From: Pyrinomonadaceae bacterium
GTDB lineage: Bacteria > Acidobacteriota > Blastocatellia > Pyrinomonadales > Pyrinomonadaceae
NCBI GenBank assembly: GCA_014380365.1
Contig: JACMJZ010000025.1
Location: 1-64,000 of the forward strand
Direction of reading: 5' to 3'
Length of the DNA stretch: 64,000 nt
Part shown: one piece after another, positions 43,952 to 55,688 of the stretch
How positions within the stretch are numbered: the first letter of the stretch is position 1
How the letters are laid out: each line of letters starts with the position of its first letter
Program-made: the position numbers and the translations under genes
Notes under the pieces: generated by a model
Told to the model about the DNA's origin: nothing
The model's input: only the letters and a program-made list of their open reading frames with translations
Database searches by the model: none

Positions 43952-45340
43952 TCACGTGGGCATTTCCACCGGATAGCCCGCTTTGATCCATGCGCCAGTT
44001 CCGCCGGTCACATTCAGGAGATTCATGAAGCCGCGTTGCTCGAGAATGCTCGTCGCTGCGCTCGAACGATAACCTCCCGCGCAGATCACCGCGGTTGGTT
44101 TGGCCAGATCAAGAGCGAGATTCGTTTGTTCCAGTTTTAAGAGCTCGACCGGGACAGCGTGTGGCACGTGCCCGCTTTCAAATTCGGCGGGACGACGAAC
44201 GTCCAGCACCTGTAGTTCGCTTTCTTTCGCCGCTAAACTGTGCAGATCCTCGACCGTAATTTGCGGTACACGGGCCGATTTCAATCCCTCTGCGCGCCAG
44301 GCGTCAATTCCTCCGCGCAAATACCCTTTGACGCTTTCCAGCCCCACGCGCGCCAGGCGCATGATGGCTTCGTCCACTTTTTCTTCCGACTCTGCCACGA
44401 TAACTATTGGTGCTCCCATCGGGATTAGAGTAGCCGCCCAGATCGCAAACTGTCCGCCCAACCCGATGTTGAGTGAGCTGGGCACGTGACCTTCTCCAAA
44501 TTCAGCCGCGCCACGCACATCAAGAACAGTGTTCCCCGCGGCGATCCGATCCTTCACTTCCTGCGGCGAAAGGGCGGTCGGGCGCGCGATTTCAGACAAC
44601 CTGTTCGCGCCGGTGCGATTGATTTCAGCATCCTTCGAAAAGTACGCCGGTGCGTCGGGCATCTCGGATGTCATCATCGTTACGAATTTATCCTTAGACA
44701 TCGGTTTGAGCGCGTAGTTAACTTTACGCTGCTCCCCAATCGTGGACCAGGTTTCCTTTGACATGTTGCGCCCGCACATCGAGCCCGCACCGTGTGCCGG
44801 GTAAACTTCCGTCTCGTCGGGAAGCTGCAACATCTTTTGATGCAGCGTGTCGTACATCATCCCGGCCATCATCTGGGGCGTGTAACCCTTGCCGCCCGCG
44901 AGGTCGGGCCGGCCCACGTCGCCCACAAAGAGGCAGTCTCCGGTGAGCACTTTCTGCGGTTGCGCTGATATCTTGGGATCGATGACCAGAATTGAAATGC
45001 TTTCGGGCGTGTGGCCGGGAGTTTCCAAAACGCGTAGTACGACTTCACCGACTCTTAGCTCGTCGCCTTCCTTGACCGCGCGGTGTGGAAAGGTGGCTTC
45101 GGCCTTTGCGCCAAAAACAATCGTCGCGCCGGTGCGGGCGGCGAGTTCCCTGTGACCGCTGACAAAATCCGCGTGCAGGTGCGTCTCAATCACATACTTG
45201 ATTTTGAGATTGTGCGCAGCCGCGTCTTCCAGGTACTGATCCACATCCCGCTGCGGATCGACTACCGCCGCTTCGCCCTCAGAACCGATAATGTAGGAAG
45301 CATGCGCCAGGCAGCCTAGATAGAACTGTTTGAAATACAT
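43952..45340 (-). CDS. MBL-fold hydrolase fused to tandem rhodanese domains
   Basis: A 462-residue fusion. The N-terminal metallo-beta-lactamase domain has THLHADFVSGH (F in place of the usual second-site H, a variant common in this subfamily), the ETPGHTPESI motif and the zinc ligands of GDCLFVGDVGRPDL and VYPAHGAG. Two rhodanese domains follow. The first lacks a catalytic cysteine; the second has AVICAGGYRSSAA with the active cysteine. Such fusions act on persulfides or thiosulfate in the cytoplasm. ATG 45340 was chosen over 45367. It is separated from the molybdenum enzyme gene by an inverted repeat. Confidence 0.9.
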   Translation of the reverse strand: MYFKQFYLGCLAHASYIIGSEGEAAVVDPQRDVDQYLEDAAAHNLKIKYVIETHLHADFVSGHRELAARTGATIVFGAKAEATFPHRAVKEGDELRVGEVVLRVLETPGHTPESISILVIDPKISAQPQKVLTGDCLFVGDVGRPDLAGGKGYTPQMMAGMMYDTLHQKMLQLPDETEVYPAHGAGSMCGRNMSKETWSTIGEQRKVNYALKPMSKDKFVTMMTSEMPDAPAYFSKDAEINRTGANRLSEIARPTALSPQEVKDRIAAGNTVLDVRGAAEFGEGHVPSSLNIGLGGQFAIWAATLIPMGAPIVIVAESEEKVDEAIMRLARVGLESVKGYLRGGIDAWRAEGLKSARVPQITVEDLHSLAAKESELQVLDVRRPAEFESGHVPHAVPVELLKLEQTNLALDLAKPTAVICAGGYRSSAATSILEQRGFMNLLNVTGGTGAWIKAGYPVEMPT

Positions 45341-45349
45341 AAGACTTAC

Positions 45350-45481
45350 CGCTGGGAGCGCAGACATCCTGTCTGCAATAGGAGCTCAGCTCGCTAAAAT
45401 TATCTTGCCCCTCAAGCATTGATCCTTTAGGCCAGTTCGCGCTGCGCGCTCATTGCAGGCAAGATGCCTGCGCTCCCAGCG
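45350..45481. repeat. long inverted repeat CGCTGGGAGCGCAG
   Basis: Left arm CGCTGGGAGCGCAGACATCC (45350-) pairs with right arm ending in CGCTCCCAGCG (45471-45481), nearly perfect over about 35 nt. Each arm itself folds (CAGACATCCTGTCTG; CAGGCAAGATGCCTG). It fills most of the gap between the two genes. Confidence 0.8.
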
Positions 45482-45483
45482 AA

Positions 45484-48447
45484 TCATTTGACTCCCGCTG
45501 GCTCAGGGATCTCTTGCTCAGGTAATTTATAGAACTCGCGCGCCGGCTTCAAAGGGCGCAGCATCCAGTAGGGACGACGCGTCCCGTCGGGCGAGTATTT
45601 ATCCGCCGGCCGCGTCATGGCCAGCCACTTCTTGTAGACCTCGCGCGACTTCGCCGTGTCAACAAATACATCGCCAGTGTTGTCGCCCGGCTGAGCGCGC
45701 GTGACGCGGACTGCCTGGTGCCAACAGTGCATTCCGGAAATCGGATCCGGATGGACCGGAAAAGTCATGTTCTGATGCACGCCAACATCGCTCCACCAGA
45801 TGCGAAGCGTGTCCGGATCGCTCGACTCGTATGGCTCAGGGCCTCGCTCGCGCTTTAGCCCCCACTCGGTTCCCTCGTGATCAAGCTTCACCGTAGCCAT
45901 CAACTGTCTTTGTCCCTGTTCGGCCTGCTCGCTAGTCTTCCAACGACCCATGTGGTGACTGCAAGCAACAATGCCGGGACGAATACCTTCCGTCACCCAG
46001 GCGCGCACGACGTAGTGGCCAATCTCAGTTTCCACGCGCAGCAGGTCGCCAGTGCGCACGCCGAGTTTCGCCGCATGGTCGGTGTGGATCCAGAGCGGAT
46101 TAGTATGTGCGATTTCGTCGAGCCACTTCGCGTTAGCGCTCCGCGTGTGAATCTGGACTGGCAAACGAAAAGTTGAGATCAGAATCGTTTCATCCTCGGC
46201 AAGATTGGTGGGATGAACATGACTGGGAACGTAATTCGGAATCGCAAACTCAGGCCAGCCCCAATCGACGAGGGTGCGTGAATAGAATTCCAACTTCCCG
46301 CTCGGTGTCGGAAAGCCGCGCTTGATTTCCTCTCCGGCCCTGACGCCTACCAGCCGGCGGCCGTCCTCGTCCGGGTCAGGCGTGGGAGTCGGCACGATAT
46401 TCTGCGATGCAGGTTTGGCAGCACGGGTATAGATTCTGCCAAAGCGGTCCTCACGCATGTCCTCAAGCTCGGCGGTGGGAACTCGTTCGTCGTAGATCGC
46501 TCCAACCTTCCGATTGATTTCAAAAGCGCCGTAGCGACGCATGAACTCCATCGGAGTTAGACCTTCCGCGGCGGCTTTCTCAGGGAGGCCGGGAACCGAG
46601 TTGTCGAAGATCCACTCGTAGTATTCATCAATCCCGAGTCGAGTTCCCGGGCTCCTTTTTGACTCGGCATACTGGCGAATGCCGAGACTGCCGTCCGCGT
46701 CAATGCGCCAGGTCAGTTCCAACCAAAACTCGTTTTCTTCCCAAACCTCGCCGGGATTCACCTCGCGCGTGTCGTTAATTTCCTCGCCGGACCGTTCCCG
46801 GACCGCCTTCTTTACCGGCTGGCGAAACCCTAGCCACTGCGCATCGTGCGTTTCGTAGGAATGAAGGTCGTGACGCTCCGAGCCATGACCCATCGGCAGG
46901 ACGTAGTCGGCGAAGTAGGCGGTTTCGTTCCACGTCGGCGTCAGCGCCACGTAGCAGCCAACCAGCTTCGGATCAGTCAACATTTCAATCCAGGAGAAGC
47001 CGTCAGGATTGGTCCAGACCGGGTTGTAAACGCGCGTGAAATAGACATCGAGCTTGCCGCGTCCGTCCTTCAGCAAGTGCGGGAGGAGAAATGACATCTC
47101 GTTCATCGAGAGCGGATACTCGCGCGGCCAGGTGGTTTCGTTCCACATCTTCGGATGCGGCGGGGTGTACATCGGTTTGGGGACAAACTTGTTCCAGGCA
47201 TTCGGAAAAACGCCGCCTTCGGTTGCCACCGCGCCGAGCAGAGCGTTGAGCATGAAAATCGCGCGGGCCGTGGTCCAGCCGGCGCTGACCCCCGAAGAAA
47301 CGCTGCGCCAGTTGTGACTGGAAAAGCGCGTGCCTGCGGTGGCCACCAGCTTCGCGATCTCTTCTATTACGCGGGCGTCAACGCCAGACTCCGCGGCGGC
47401 AAACTCGAAGGAGTATTCCTCGTAAAGCTGTTTGAGGCTGTGCTCAAACTCTTCGAAGCGATTTTCAACGGAAGGATGTTCCTGGTTCGGTTGTTCGACA
47501 AACTTAAGTTTGTCGGACTCGGCACCCGGCACCCGGTACCCGGCACCTGCTTCCAGGTATTCCTCCCAGTTCCACCAGCGGCGCACGAAGTCGCGATTAT
47601 AGAGATTGTTCTGAATCAGGTAATTCGCAATCGCCAGCAGCATTGCGGCTTCGGAGCCGGGATAGGGCGCGACCCAGTAGTCGGCGTGCGTGGCAGTGTG
47701 GGAGAGACGCGTGTCGAAGACGATTAACTTGGCGCCGTTTGCTTTGCCGTCGATGACGCGTTGCGCGTGTGGGTTGAAGTAATGGCCCGACTCGAGATGC
47801 GCGCTGATGAGCAGAATGACTTTGGCGTTGGCGTGGTCGGGACTGGGCCGGTCGAGTCCCATCCAGAGTTGGTAACCTTCACGACTGCCGGAGGAACAAA
47901 TGTTCGTGTGCGAGTTGTGCCCGTCAACGCCCCAGGCCGCGAGTATGCGTTCGGTGAAACCATCTTCACCGGGCCGCCCGACGTGATACATAATTTCCTG
48001 ACGACGATTTTCAATTATTGCCTTGCGAATTCGCGCGGCAATGTCGTCGAGCGCATCGTCCCACGTGGTGCGTTCCCATTTTCCCTTGCCGCGTTCGCCG
48101 GCGCGCTTGAGCGGGTAGAGAATGCGATCGGGATCGTGAATCTGGTTGAGCGTCGCCGGACCCTTCGCGCAGTTGCGTCCACGGCTCCCCGGATGCTCGG
48201 GGTTCCCCTCAAACTTCTGCACTTCACCGGTAATCTTGTCGATGTAGGCGAGTAGGCCGCAGGCAGATTCGCAGTTGAAGCAGGTAGTGGGAACGAGTGA
48301 ATAATGTCGCTCCTTGCGCCGCGGCCACGCCTGCGAATCAAGCTCAGTCCAATTATCCCAGCGCTCTTTGGGAGGATACGCCGCGAGATGACTCCGGCTC
48401 GGCCCAGGATAGAAGGTTTCGTTTTGGTTGTCGTCAATTGACTTCAT
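45484..48447 (-). CDS. molybdopterin-dependent oxidoreductase, catalytic subunit
   Basis: A 987-residue member of the DMSO-reductase superfamily. The N-terminal [4Fe-4S] ligands are C56-xx-C59-xxx-C63 and C93 (TTCFNCESACG). The molybdenum ligand is probably C184 in TNICSSGSREGYQLW. No Tat signal is seen, so it is likely cytoplasmic. Residues about 316-331, reading YLEAGAGYRVPGAESDKL, come from tandem GGCACCC words at 47519-47552 and look like a repeat insertion. It may pair with the FeS/NrfD subunit at 49736, giving a membrane complex; substrate is unknown, but neighbours suggest sulfur compounds. Confidence 0.9.
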   Translation of the reverse strand: MKSIDDNQNETFYPGPSRSHLAAYPPKERWDNWTELDSQAWPRRKERHYSLVPTTCFNCESACGLLAYIDKITGEVQKFEGNPEHPGSRGRNCAKGPATLNQIHDPDRILYPLKRAGERGKGKWERTTWDDALDDIAARIRKAIIENRRQEIMYHVGRPGEDGFTERILAAWGVDGHNSHTNICSSGSREGYQLWMGLDRPSPDHANAKVILLISAHLESGHYFNPHAQRVIDGKANGAKLIVFDTRLSHTATHADYWVAPYPGSEAAMLLAIANYLIQNNLYNRDFVRRWWNWEEYLEAGAGYRVPGAESDKLKFVEQPNQEHPSVENRFEEFEHSLKQLYEEYSFEFAAAESGVDARVIEEIAKLVATAGTRFSSHNWRSVSSGVSAGWTTARAIFMLNALLGAVATEGGVFPNAWNKFVPKPMYTPPHPKMWNETTWPREYPLSMNEMSFLLPHLLKDGRGKLDVYFTRVYNPVWTNPDGFSWIEMLTDPKLVGCYVALTPTWNETAYFADYVLPMGHGSERHDLHSYETHDAQWLGFRQPVKKAVRERSGEEINDTREVNPGEVWEENEFWLELTWRIDADGSLGIRQYAESKRSPGTRLGIDEYYEWIFDNSVPGLPEKAAAEGLTPMEFMRRYGAFEINRKVGAIYDERVPTAELEDMREDRFGRIYTRAAKPASQNIVPTPTPDPDEDGRRLVGVRAGEEIKRGFPTPSGKLEFYSRTLVDWGWPEFAIPNYVPSHVHPTNLAEDETILISTFRLPVQIHTRSANAKWLDEIAHTNPLWIHTDHAAKLGVRTGDLLRVETEIGHYVVRAWVTEGIRPGIVACSHHMGRWKTSEQAEQGQRQLMATVKLDHEGTEWGLKRERGPEPYESSDPDTLRIWWSDVGVHQNMTFPVHPDPISGMHCWHQAVRVTRAQPGDNTGDVFVDTAKSREVYKKWLAMTRPADKYSPDGTRRPYWMLRPLKPAREFYKLPEQEIPEPAGVK
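47519..47552. repeat. tandem GGCACCC repeats inside the molybdenum enzyme gene
   Basis: GGCACCCGGCACCCGGTACC and a further GGCACC unit repeat in tandem with a 7-8 nt period. On the gene strand they encode the GAGYRVPGA stretch. Confidence 0.6.
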
Positions 48448-49735: not shown

Positions 49736-51331
49736 TCACGCCAGCGGCACTGACTGCCCTGCCTGCACGTAGGCGTTCTCAAAAAGCATTAATCCAATCA
49801 GAGCCAGCGGCGCGCCGGCTATACCTATCGATGTGCTGATGACGCCGGAGAGCGCCAGCCAGGGGATCACGCCGCCGAGCATCGATAGAATCATACCGAT
49901 CCAGAAGTCGCTCTTGTAACGGCCGCTCACCATCTCCCAAACTGCGAGACGCGCGTGGGCGGTCGAGTGCGTCAGCGAGACTTCGCCCCAGACCATCAGC
50001 ACGTGAAGCAAACTCAAGATAGCCAGCAGCCACAGCAGATTAAGGATCTCGGGGCGGATTTGGTCAATCATCACTCCATCCGGAGCGAAAAACCCTTTAG
50101 ACCAGACGAAAGCCAACAGCAGTACGGCTGAGCCCAGGAGTAAAGTTTGAACCAACAGATGCGGCGGCAGGAGCGGGTTTTGCCACATGTCGCGCGCCTT
50201 CGCCTGGGCGAAAAGATAGGCCGTGTAGATCGCCGTCAACACCGACAGCGGGATTCCCGCGACCATCAGCCAACTTTGAAGCGTTCTTGAACCAGACCAA
50301 CTGGCGACGAAATGAACCGCGAGCACCAGCGAGTAGCCCGCGATAATGAACGCACCCTTCACCAGCCAACTACGCCACTGCGGTCGGGTAAAGATTAGAT
50401 AGAAGCGCTCGGGATGCTCGAGGTCCCAGATCAGTAGTGCTCCGGTGATTGCCAGAAAGACTCCGGAGACAACCGGCGTCGCCCAAATCCAGATTGAATT
50501 GTTTGCGCTCATGAACCCAAACAACACGAGCAGCGCGGCGACCAGGTAAACTCCGGCGGCTATGCCTTTGGTCCAGGTGTAGAGGCTGACGCGCCAGTCC
50601 CAGGGAATTGAATGCGCGACATCGTAGGACAGCAACGCAGCTGCCGAGCTGTTGTTGAAGTTTGGATTACCGGAAACCACTTGCCCCGCGCCCTGTTGCT
50701 GTTCGCTCCACATAAACAGTCCGCCGTCAGGCCGGCGCGCGGCGAGCGGGTCGAGCGTCGCCTGGTGCGCGCCTTTGTAGAAAAGCTTTGGTAGCGTTTC
50801 CTTTTCGGGTCGACGGACGGCCACCGATTCGCGGTTGATAATCTGCGCGACGTACGACTCCTGGTCGTTCATGTCGCCAATGAGAATCGCTTGCGTCGGG
50901 CAGACAACGACGCACGCCGGCTCAAGCCCCACGTCGATCCGGTGCGCGCAGAAGTTACACTTCTCAGCCGAGTGGTCTTCCGGGTTAATGAAGATCGCAT
51001 CGTAGGGACACGCTGCGATGCACGCCTTGCAGCCGATGCAGATGGATTTGTCGAAATCAACAATGCCGTCTGCACGTTTGAACATCGCCGTGGTTGGGCA
51101 TGCGGTGGCGCAGGGAGCGTGCTCGCATTGATTGCAGCGCGTGACCTGATGCGCCCGGCGGGCGGTGGGAAACACGCCCACGTCGACGTGCTTAACGTAG
51201 GTGCGCGTGACGGAGAGCGGAACCAGGTTTTCCGACTTGCACGCCGTCGTGCATGCATGACAGCCGATGCATCGCGTATGGTCGATGACCTTGGCCCACT
51301 TCACCGCCTGGCTCTGTGGTTCTGTAACCAT
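49736..51331 (-). CDS. fused tetra-[4Fe-4S] electron transfer and NrfD-type membrane subunit
   Basis: A 531-residue fusion. Residues 15-165 hold four cysteine groups (CIGCHACTTAC, CNQCEHAPCATAC, CIGCKACIAACP, CNFCAHRIDVGLEPAC...C), giving four [4Fe-4S] clusters like DmsB/NrfC. The C-terminal half has about eight membrane helices with NrfD-type sequence (IPWDWRVSLYTWTKGIAAGV). It should move electrons between a membrane quinone pool and the molybdenum catalytic subunit at 45484. One metallophosphoesterase gene lies between. Fusion of the two subunits is unusual but known in related complexes. Confidence 0.88.
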   Translation of the reverse strand: MVTEPQSQAVKWAKVIDHTRCIGCHACTTACKSENLVPLSVTRTYVKHVDVGVFPTARRAHQVTRCNQCEHAPCATACPTTAMFKRADGIVDFDKSICIGCKACIAACPYDAIFINPEDHSAEKCNFCAHRIDVGLEPACVVVCPTQAILIGDMNDQESYVAQIINRESVAVRRPEKETLPKLFYKGAHQATLDPLAARRPDGGLFMWSEQQQGAGQVVSGNPNFNNSSAAALLSYDVAHSIPWDWRVSLYTWTKGIAAGVYLVAALLVLFGFMSANNSIWIWATPVVSGVFLAITGALLIWDLEHPERFYLIFTRPQWRSWLVKGAFIIAGYSLVLAVHFVASWSGSRTLQSWLMVAGIPLSVLTAIYTAYLFAQAKARDMWQNPLLPPHLLVQTLLLGSAVLLLAFVWSKGFFAPDGVMIDQIRPEILNLLWLLAILSLLHVLMVWGEVSLTHSTAHARLAVWEMVSGRYKSDFWIGMILSMLGGVIPWLALSGVISTSIGIAGAPLALIGLMLFENAYVQAGQSVPLA

Positions 51332-51710: not shown

Positions 51711-52175
51711 ATGCGCCGTATTTATTCCTTTCTGGCAATCACTCTGCTGAGCCTGATGGTTTTGACCGGGTGTAACTCAGCCGAGAACAAGACGTCAAGC
51801 GCGGGACCTATAGCGCCTCAGACACCAGCTTCCAGGGCTGCTCCGACAGACGGTATCCGCCGGATCACTGTCGTCGAGCTGCGGGAGTTGTTGGCAAAGA
51901 ATGAGGCTGTGGTTATTGATGTGCGAAACCAGGAGGCTTATAACCTCTCACACATCCAGGGAGCGAAGCTCATCCCGGTAGCCGACACGTTGAAACATAT
52001 CGACGAGTTGCCGAAGGACAAGTTAATCGTTACCTATTGCGCTTGACCAAAGGAACAGACATCCGCCGGTTCGGCGGTGAGCATGAAATCAAAAGGTATC
52101 GAAAACACCGCCGCCCTGTTGGGTGGTTTTGCAGCATGGCAAAAAGCAGGATTGCCGGTCGCGTCTAAGCAGTAA
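51711..52175 (+). CDS. rhodanese-like lipoprotein, probable selenoprotein (Sec at in-frame TGA)
   Basis: Read through one in-frame TGA, this is a 154-residue rhodanese-domain lipoprotein. The leader ends in the lipobox LTGC (C21), so it is exported. The domain has the EAVVIDVRNQEAYNLSHIQG segment and the catalytic loop TYCA-x-PKEQTSAG. The TGA (52044-52046) takes the place of x at residue 112, where homologues have Cys (YCACPxExxSA pattern). After it the same frame continues with KSKGIENTAALLGGFAAWQK, the normal end of a rhodanese, to TAA at 52173. A bacterial SECIS-type hairpin follows (52063-52077). GGAGG precedes ATG 51711. Without readthrough the product stops at 111 residues and would lack the fold's end. 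Confidence 0.7.
52063..52077 (+). promoter_or_regulatory. candidate bacterial SECIS hairpin
   Basis: CCGCC-GGTTC-GGCGG: five G-C pairs and a five-base loop opening with G. It begins 16 nt after the TGA. Loop position and first-base G fit the known bacterial SECIS rule (loop 16-37 nt from UGA, G in the first two loop bases). Confidence 0.6.
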
Positions 52176-54563: not shown

Positions 54564-55688
54564 CTATGGAAGCGCGTTAATCAGCTCGTCAATCTCTGCC
54601 AGGGTGTTGTAGAGGTGGGGCGAGATGCGAAGTCGATCGCCTCGTGGGGCGGTGATGATGTTCCTTTTCTTCAAGTGGGCATAAAGATCCATAGAACTCA
54701 GCCCGGCGGTGTTTCGAATACAGACAATCGCCGACTTCTCGCCCGGGCGTCGCGAACTGACAAGTTGATAATTGCTGCGCTGAACGCGTTCACAAAGATG
54801 GTCTGTCAGAGTTTCCAAATGATCCTGAATACGCTGAACTCCGGTTTCACTCAAAAGCTTTAGACTTACTTCCAAACCATGAATAAGGGAGGCCGGTCCC
54901 GTACCCGTCTCCCAGGCGAGCGTGCCCACGTTCCAGCCCTGATCAAAGTTGCTGTAGTCATCCGGGTTTGGAACGCTGATCCAGCCCACCAAAGTAGGCT
55001 TCACTCGTGCACGGGCTCGAGCAGACAAATAGAGCCAGCCCACGCCTTCCGGCGTCAAAAGCCACTTGTGGCAGGCCCCAGCAGCGACGTCGATCAGTTG
55101 CGACTCGACATCGAGGGGAACGACTCCGAGAGATTGAATTACGTCCACAACAAGCAGCGCATCATGCGCACGTGCGGCGCGACCAACGCGCTCGAGGTCA
55201 GCACGAAACCCGGACGCATACTGAACATGACTAATGGCGACCAACCGCGTTCGGCCATCAATCAGCCCGCATAGTTCATCCAGGTCGACGCGGCCATCGC
55301 GTTCTTCACACATGCGCACTTCGACCCCGAAGGCGTCTCGCAAACGCAGCCAGGGATAAATGTTTGAGGGAAACTCGTTGCGAAAAGTGAGGATGTTATC
55401 GCCAGCGCGCCAGTCGAGACCGTTCGCCACCGTTGAGAGTGCGTCCGAAGTGTTCCTTAAAAACGCGACTTGTTCGGGACGCGCGCCAAGCATCCCAGCG
55501 AGCAACTGGCGCGTTCGTTCCTTGGTCGCGATCCAGCTACGGAAGTTTACGGATCCGTTTTCCGAAACGTCGCGTAACTGAGCTTGGATTGCGTCGATCG
55601 TCGCCTGCGGCGGAGGCGAGACGGCCGCGTGGTTTAAGTAGTTAGCACGCTTGGTTACGGGAAAGAGCGCGCGCAAGGTCTCGTTCAT
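54564..55688 (-). CDS. class V aminotransferase-fold PLP enzyme
   Basis: A 374-residue PLP-dependent enzyme of the aminotransferase class V/cysteine desulfurase fold. Seen: YLNHAAVSPPP near the N-terminus, the PLP-site VAFLRNTSDALST, DALLVVDVIQSLGVVPLD with its cofactor aspartate, and the lysine in AAGACHKWLLTPEGVGWLY. The family includes isopenicillin-N epimerase-like and kynureninase-like enzymes. The loop cysteine of true desulfurases is not seen, so the substrate is undetermined. It lies 6 nt after the next gene upstream (55695), likely one transcript. Confidence 0.88.
   Translation of the reverse strand: MNETLRALFPVTKRANYLNHAAVSPPPQATIDAIQAQLRDVSENGSVNFRSWIATKERTRQLLAGMLGARPEQVAFLRNTSDALSTVANGLDWRAGDNILTFRNEFPSNIYPWLRLRDAFGVEVRMCEERDGRVDLDELCGLIDGRTRLVAISHVQYASGFRADLERVGRAARAHDALLVVDVIQSLGVVPLDVESQLIDVAAGACHKWLLTPEGVGWLYLSARARARVKPTLVGWISVPNPDDYSNFDQGWNVGTLAWETGTGPASLIHGLEVSLKLLSETGVQRIQDHLETLTDHLCERVQRSNYQLVSSRRPGEKSAIVCIRNTAGLSSMDLYAHLKKRNIITAPRGDRLRISPHLYNTLAEIDELINALP

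Follow-up and report, generated by a model that had tools for sequence, protein, structure and literature searches.

A predicted selenocysteine-containing rhodanese lipoprotein of Acidobacteriota and its possible role in sulfane-sulfur handling

The rhodanese gene at 51711-52175 of the window (the whole 64,000-nucleotide stretch of DNA analyzed here) carries an in-frame TGA, which raises the question of whether the codon ends a short protein or encodes selenocysteine (Sec), and what such a selenoprotein might do. The gene starts with ATG at 51711, preceded by a GGAGG Shine-Dalgarno motif on sequence inspection. The active-site region reads TYC-A-TGA-PKEQTSAG, and the TGA is followed by 42 sense codons with a normal rhodanese end, and then by TAA. 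The sequence and positions reported in an earlier note on this DNA (gene at 51711-52175, TGA at 52044-52046, TAA at 52173) were reproduced on re-reading. Conventional ORF calling ended the product at 111 aa, as that note had expected of annotation. The coding features were as follows.

51711-52175, + strand: gene for the predicted Sec-containing rhodanese lipoprotein, 154 aa with UGA read as Sec112; read-through homologues across most genomes of the family

52038-52040, + strand: codon of Cys110, at the catalytic rhodanese cysteine position (an alignment column in which the rhodaneses invariably have Cys)

52044-52046, + strand: in-frame TGA, codon 112, predicted Sec

52173-52175, + strand: TAA, the gene's true stop; in most orthologues the next stop lies 42-47 codons past the TGA

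The read-through protein matched the rhodanese domain (Pfam PF00581, 60.4 bits, gathering cut-off 22.2). AlphaFold2 returned a confident rhodanese core with a strand at 105-109, a loop at 110-115 and a helix at 116-127, and a Foldseek search with this model matched solved rhodanese domains, including persulfide dioxygenase-rhodanese fusions. Cys110 falls in the invariant Cys column that opens the active-site loop, the place of the catalytic rhodanese Cys; therefore, Sec112 would be the third residue of that loop. If translation truly ended at the TGA, or the gene had decayed by mutation, the truncated 111-residue protein that standard ORF calling yields would be made, lacking the C-terminal portion of the domain.

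Homologue DNA was extracted, and 125 distinct sites with a Cys two residues earlier were compared. The site codon was TGA in 82/125, TGC or TGT in 28/125 and another codon in 15/125, the last being rhodaneses of different loop types (e.g. CxGGxR). The in-frame UGA of the window gene is aligned with Cys in homologues, as in known selenoprotein families. The 28 sites of the same loop type with Cys codons agree with the earlier note, which had stated that homologues have Cys at this position, and close relatives, in which varied non-Cys codons would have spoken against Sec, showed only TGA or Cys codons. When 97 related genomes were searched with read-through allowed, every one (97/97) gave rhodanese matches, and the best match from most members of the family contained exactly one stop, a TGA. 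Comparison of relatives also showed that coding continues through this codon: past the TGA the third codon positions still change most (e.g. 7/4/22 differences by codon position against homologue L026), and the pattern is the same as before it. A sequencing error at the TGA is very unlikely and was rejected, since many independent genomes share the codon. It is found in dozens of genera, and the coding sequence beyond it is conserved, which makes a truncated or decayed gene exceedingly improbable. In a protein tree of 110 TGA or Cys domains, for which few columns were available and many forks were unresolved, at least 15 label changes were counted, 8 of them forced by well-supported branches, and Sec and Cys have therefore been exchanged repeatedly. 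With so many natural Sec/Cys pairs at hand, the contribution of Sec to a rhodanese could readily be tested.

Several other rhodanese types were seen among the homologues. Three (L010, L086 and L095) have the loop C-x-G-P-T-U, with the TGA five residues past the catalytic Cys. In six others (L169-L172, L174 and L177), YDSDP replaces YC-x-C/U, so that Asp stands in place of the catalytic Cys as well as at the Sec/Cys position; these homologues are perhaps non-catalytic. Tandem pairs of Sec rhodanese genes occur in several genera (L108, L109, L110 and L116).

A candidate selenocysteine insertion element was located directly downstream of the TGA.

52063-52077, + strand: bacterial SECIS-type hairpin, stem 52063-52067/52073-52077, loop 52068-52072 (GGUUC), recognized from covariation and from the contrast with Cys homologues

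The five-pair GC hairpin that the earlier note had placed 16 nt after the TGA is present in the sequence: CCGCC (52063-52067) pairs with GGCGG (52073-52077) around the DNA loop GGTTC. On its own this hairpin is ordinary (single-sequence fold, z = -0.66; 41/200 shuffles equally stable), and it matched no known SECIS family in Rfam. As the single-sequence fold was not significant, comparison across relatives was used. All five inner pairs were intact in 69/82 TGA homologues vs. 1/28 Cys homologues, and when the register was slid the hairpin was found in 0/82 TGA genes. Reshuffling synonymous codons within columns left 47.8 +/- 3.5 hairpins intact (maximum 59 in 2000 shuffles, 69 observed), a null that ignores relatedness and whose margin is too generous; with uniform synonymous codons, 4.5 intact hairpins were obtained. 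The two loop-adjacent pairs (C-G, C-G) and the second loop base, G, were invariant in 82/82 TGA genes and variable in Cys genes. The window and some genus mates have C-G as the outermost pair (52063/52077), most others have G-C, and the pair next to it changes from C-G to T-A in some relatives; cells changed on both sides of the stem numbered 15, compared with 5.7 +/- 1.8 in shuffles (0/500 as high). These comparisons clearly support, well beyond chance, a SECIS hairpin close downstream of the TGA with a conserved apical-loop G. Its retention only where the TGA is present further argues against a plain stop. A SECIS model built from the homologue sites, the window's own site among them, scored that site at 41.5 bits; the next-best hits reached 7.9 bits within the window and 16.7 bits genome-wide. 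When the genome was searched with this model for other selenoproteins, only the gene at 51711-52175 rose above noise, as is to be expected from a model tied to the rhodanese family.

The genome holding the window (34 contigs, 95% complete) encodes the full selenocysteine machinery: tRNA-Sec with anticodon TCA (69.7 bits), SelB (330 bits), SelA (534 bits) and SelD (357 bits), i.e. all four components that the earlier note had named for checking. Among the 97 related genomes, tRNA-Sec and SelA were each found above curated cut-offs in 90. Two near-complete genomes (G035 and G055) were without tRNA-Sec and SelA, and their best rhodanese matches were stop-free; this fits a link between the Sec rhodanese and the Sec trait, although two genomes are too few for proof. 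The SelD of the window's genome (L064:1501-2430) has a Sec of its own (SCSGU) and is itself a predicted selenoprotein. One related genome (G015:C6:98652-100877, C11 and C15) has four tRNA-Sec genes, two of them about 2 kb apart.

The residue inserted at the UGA is not evident from sequence alone, and read-through with an ordinary amino acid, by suppression or under a reassigned code, is conceivable. This is very improbable, since UGA swaps with Cys codons in this loop type, the genome has complete Sec machinery and the hairpin accompanies the TGA; a reassigned code is further opposed by several orthologues in which TGA serves as the terminal stop. Judged from comparative sequence evidence, the gene at 51711-52175 almost certainly encodes a selenoprotein, a reading that the earlier note had proposed and that the Sec machinery, the restriction of the site to TGA or Cys codons and the recurrence in many genomes all support. 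Ribosomes would decode UGA codon 112 as Sec by means of SelB, tRNA-Sec and the adjacent downstream hairpin. Because ORF calling cuts the protein inside its active-site loop, annotations probably misrepresent a protein that is widespread in this bacterial class.

The N-terminus carries a predicted export signal.

51711-51773, + strand: signal peptide with lipobox LTGC and predicted lipidated Cys21; most orthologues have similar N-termini

The sequence has the signal peptide and the lipobox ending in Cys that mark a lipoprotein (MRRIYSFLAITLLSLMVLTGC), and the product would be exported and then lipid-anchored through its N-terminal cysteine. Lipoprotein-type N-termini were assigned to most clade members by a simple pattern rule, not by SignalP. 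The earlier note had considered a lipid-anchored Sec rhodanese unusual, which does not hold within the clade, where most members look like lipoproteins. An open-paper literature search found no papers on Sec rhodanese lipoproteins in Acidobacteriota or on the lipoprotein clade.

Relationships to known rhodaneses were then considered. The BpPRF persulfide dioxygenase-rhodanese and the GlpE and YgaP rhodanese domains are not known to have Sec or a C-x-C/U loop. They share the fold and the catalytic Cys position with the window protein but, unlike it, are not exported lipoproteins (BpPRF, PDB 5ve3). Sec rhodaneses as such have been reported before, as the earlier note had stated (NF041203, PMC13188914, PMC9312934): the C-x-U form corresponds to 'Rhodanese-like form 3, CxU' (PMC13188914) and appears also in PMC9312934. 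Forms 1, 2 and 4 and TsoB likewise have Sec in a rhodanese domain, but theirs lies in UxxS, UxxG and UxxxxU motifs, and TsoB has a DsbD-like part (PMC13188914). The best NCBIfam match of the window protein was NF041203 (rhodanese_LYCAU, rhodanese-related (seleno)protein) at 87.4 bits, below the curated cut-off of 115. The window protein has the YC-x-(U/C) loop motif of that family (TYCAU), with Sec at the same position; it differs in its lipoprotein signal peptide, and in the tree it branches apart from L082 (91.1 bits), a Cys paralogue encoded by this same genome that is closer to NF041203. The C-x-U Sec rhodanese is an already predicted family, and the sequence comparisons give good support for regarding the lipoprotein clade as a new variant of it.

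Neighboring genes were compared across 21 Sec rhodanese loci, several of them on short contigs. In the window, three genes of recurrent families lie on the opposite strand.

49736-51331, - strand: 4Fe-4S/NrfD fusion protein (PF13247 and PF03916), divergent neighbor; family in 13/21 loci

45484-48447, - strand: molybdopterin oxidoreductase; family in 11/21 loci

43955-45367, - strand: MBL-fold, persulfide-dioxygenase-like protein with two rhodanese domains (a Lactamase_B and two Rhodanese stretches); family in 8/21 loci

By this comparison the neighborhood is conserved, and the Sec rhodanese lipoprotein, conserved across dozens of related genera, stands in this uncultured bacterium beside sulfur-oxidation-like genes. 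A relative of the molybdoenzyme on Rhodococcus jostii pRHL3 (56% identity) follows genes for DsrE, TusA and an FeS protein, with MBL-fold genes around. Assignment of the molybdoenzyme as SoeA, PhsA or PsrA was rejected, its NCBIfam matches all being far below their cut-offs (PhsA, 204.5 of 694 bits). Also near the Sec gene, at 54564-55688 (- strand) of the window, is a class V aminotransferase of the cysteine desulfurase/selenocysteine lyase superfamily, below all NCBIfam cut-offs.

In known pathways, glutathione receives sulfane sulfur faster with the help of rhodanese, and sulfite is formed by persulfide dioxygenase (PMC11507549). Taken together with the recurrent sulfur-type neighborhood, this favors a sulfane-sulfur role, and with moderate confidence the protein is proposed to be exported, anchored in the membrane and active as a sulfane-sulfur transferase or a persulfide relay that would use Cys110-x-Sec112. 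Sulfane sulfur would be taken up on Cys110 or Sec112, giving a persulfide or a perselenide, and the Cys-x-Sec pair would hand it on or free it reductively. In this genus the protein would probably serve the adjacent persulfide-dioxygenase-like rhodanese protein and the molybdenum/FeS/NrfD oxidoreductase. Points against this reading are that the partner proteins look cytoplasmic or membrane-bound, whereas the rhodanese looks exported, and that some genera (L113, L116 and L117) have the Sec rhodanese but no molybdenum operon close to it. More tentatively, the exported Sec rhodanese lipoproteins of one Acidobacteriota class might form a clade of selenium-dependent sulfur carriers for sulfane-sulfur oxidation. 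Their partners would be persulfide dioxygenase and a quinone-linked enzyme of the molybdenum/NrfD type, and the sulfur would pass along a Cys-x-Sec persulfide/perselenide relay; no description of such relay chemistry for rhodaneses was found in the literature. In Acidobacteriota, the finding would connect the use of selenium with the handling of sulfane sulfur outside the cytoplasm.

The selenoprotein might instead mature or protect the adjacent molybdoenzyme, with no part in sulfur oxidation. It adjoins the molybdopterin oxidoreductase gene, and in other genera a molybdate-type ABC transporter (substrate-binding protein, permease and ATPase) is also found at the locus. Molybdenum cofactor sulfuration is cytoplasmic, however, and the rhodanese is predicted to be exported; several genera moreover keep the Sec rhodanese with no molybdoenzyme nearby, and this alternative is considered improbable.

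The main rival to a sulfur transferase is an extracytoplasmic thiol/selenol redox relay, in which Cys110-x-Sec112 of the selenoprotein would act in peroxide or disulfide reduction. Most predicted selenoproteins have thiol oxidoreductase homology (PMC9312934), and Sec rhodanese domains of this type also form fusions with VTT/DedA and cation-antiporter proteins, neither of which is an obvious sulfur enzyme. Retention of the catalytic rhodanese Cys and the sulfur-related neighborhood at genus level speak against a redox relay, which is judged rather unlikely; sulfane-sulfur transfer is the preferred reading.

The fusion proteins are of two kinds. In one, a Sec (TGA) C-x-U rhodanese domain lies behind a VTT/DedA membrane domain (L009:2386-3375, L093:1462-2421 and L096:25-1890); these fusions are absent from a 2026 review, and no paper on them was found. 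In the other, a Sec C-x-U rhodanese domain is fused to a cation/proton antiporter (PF00999; L075:154-1842 and L080:226-1854).
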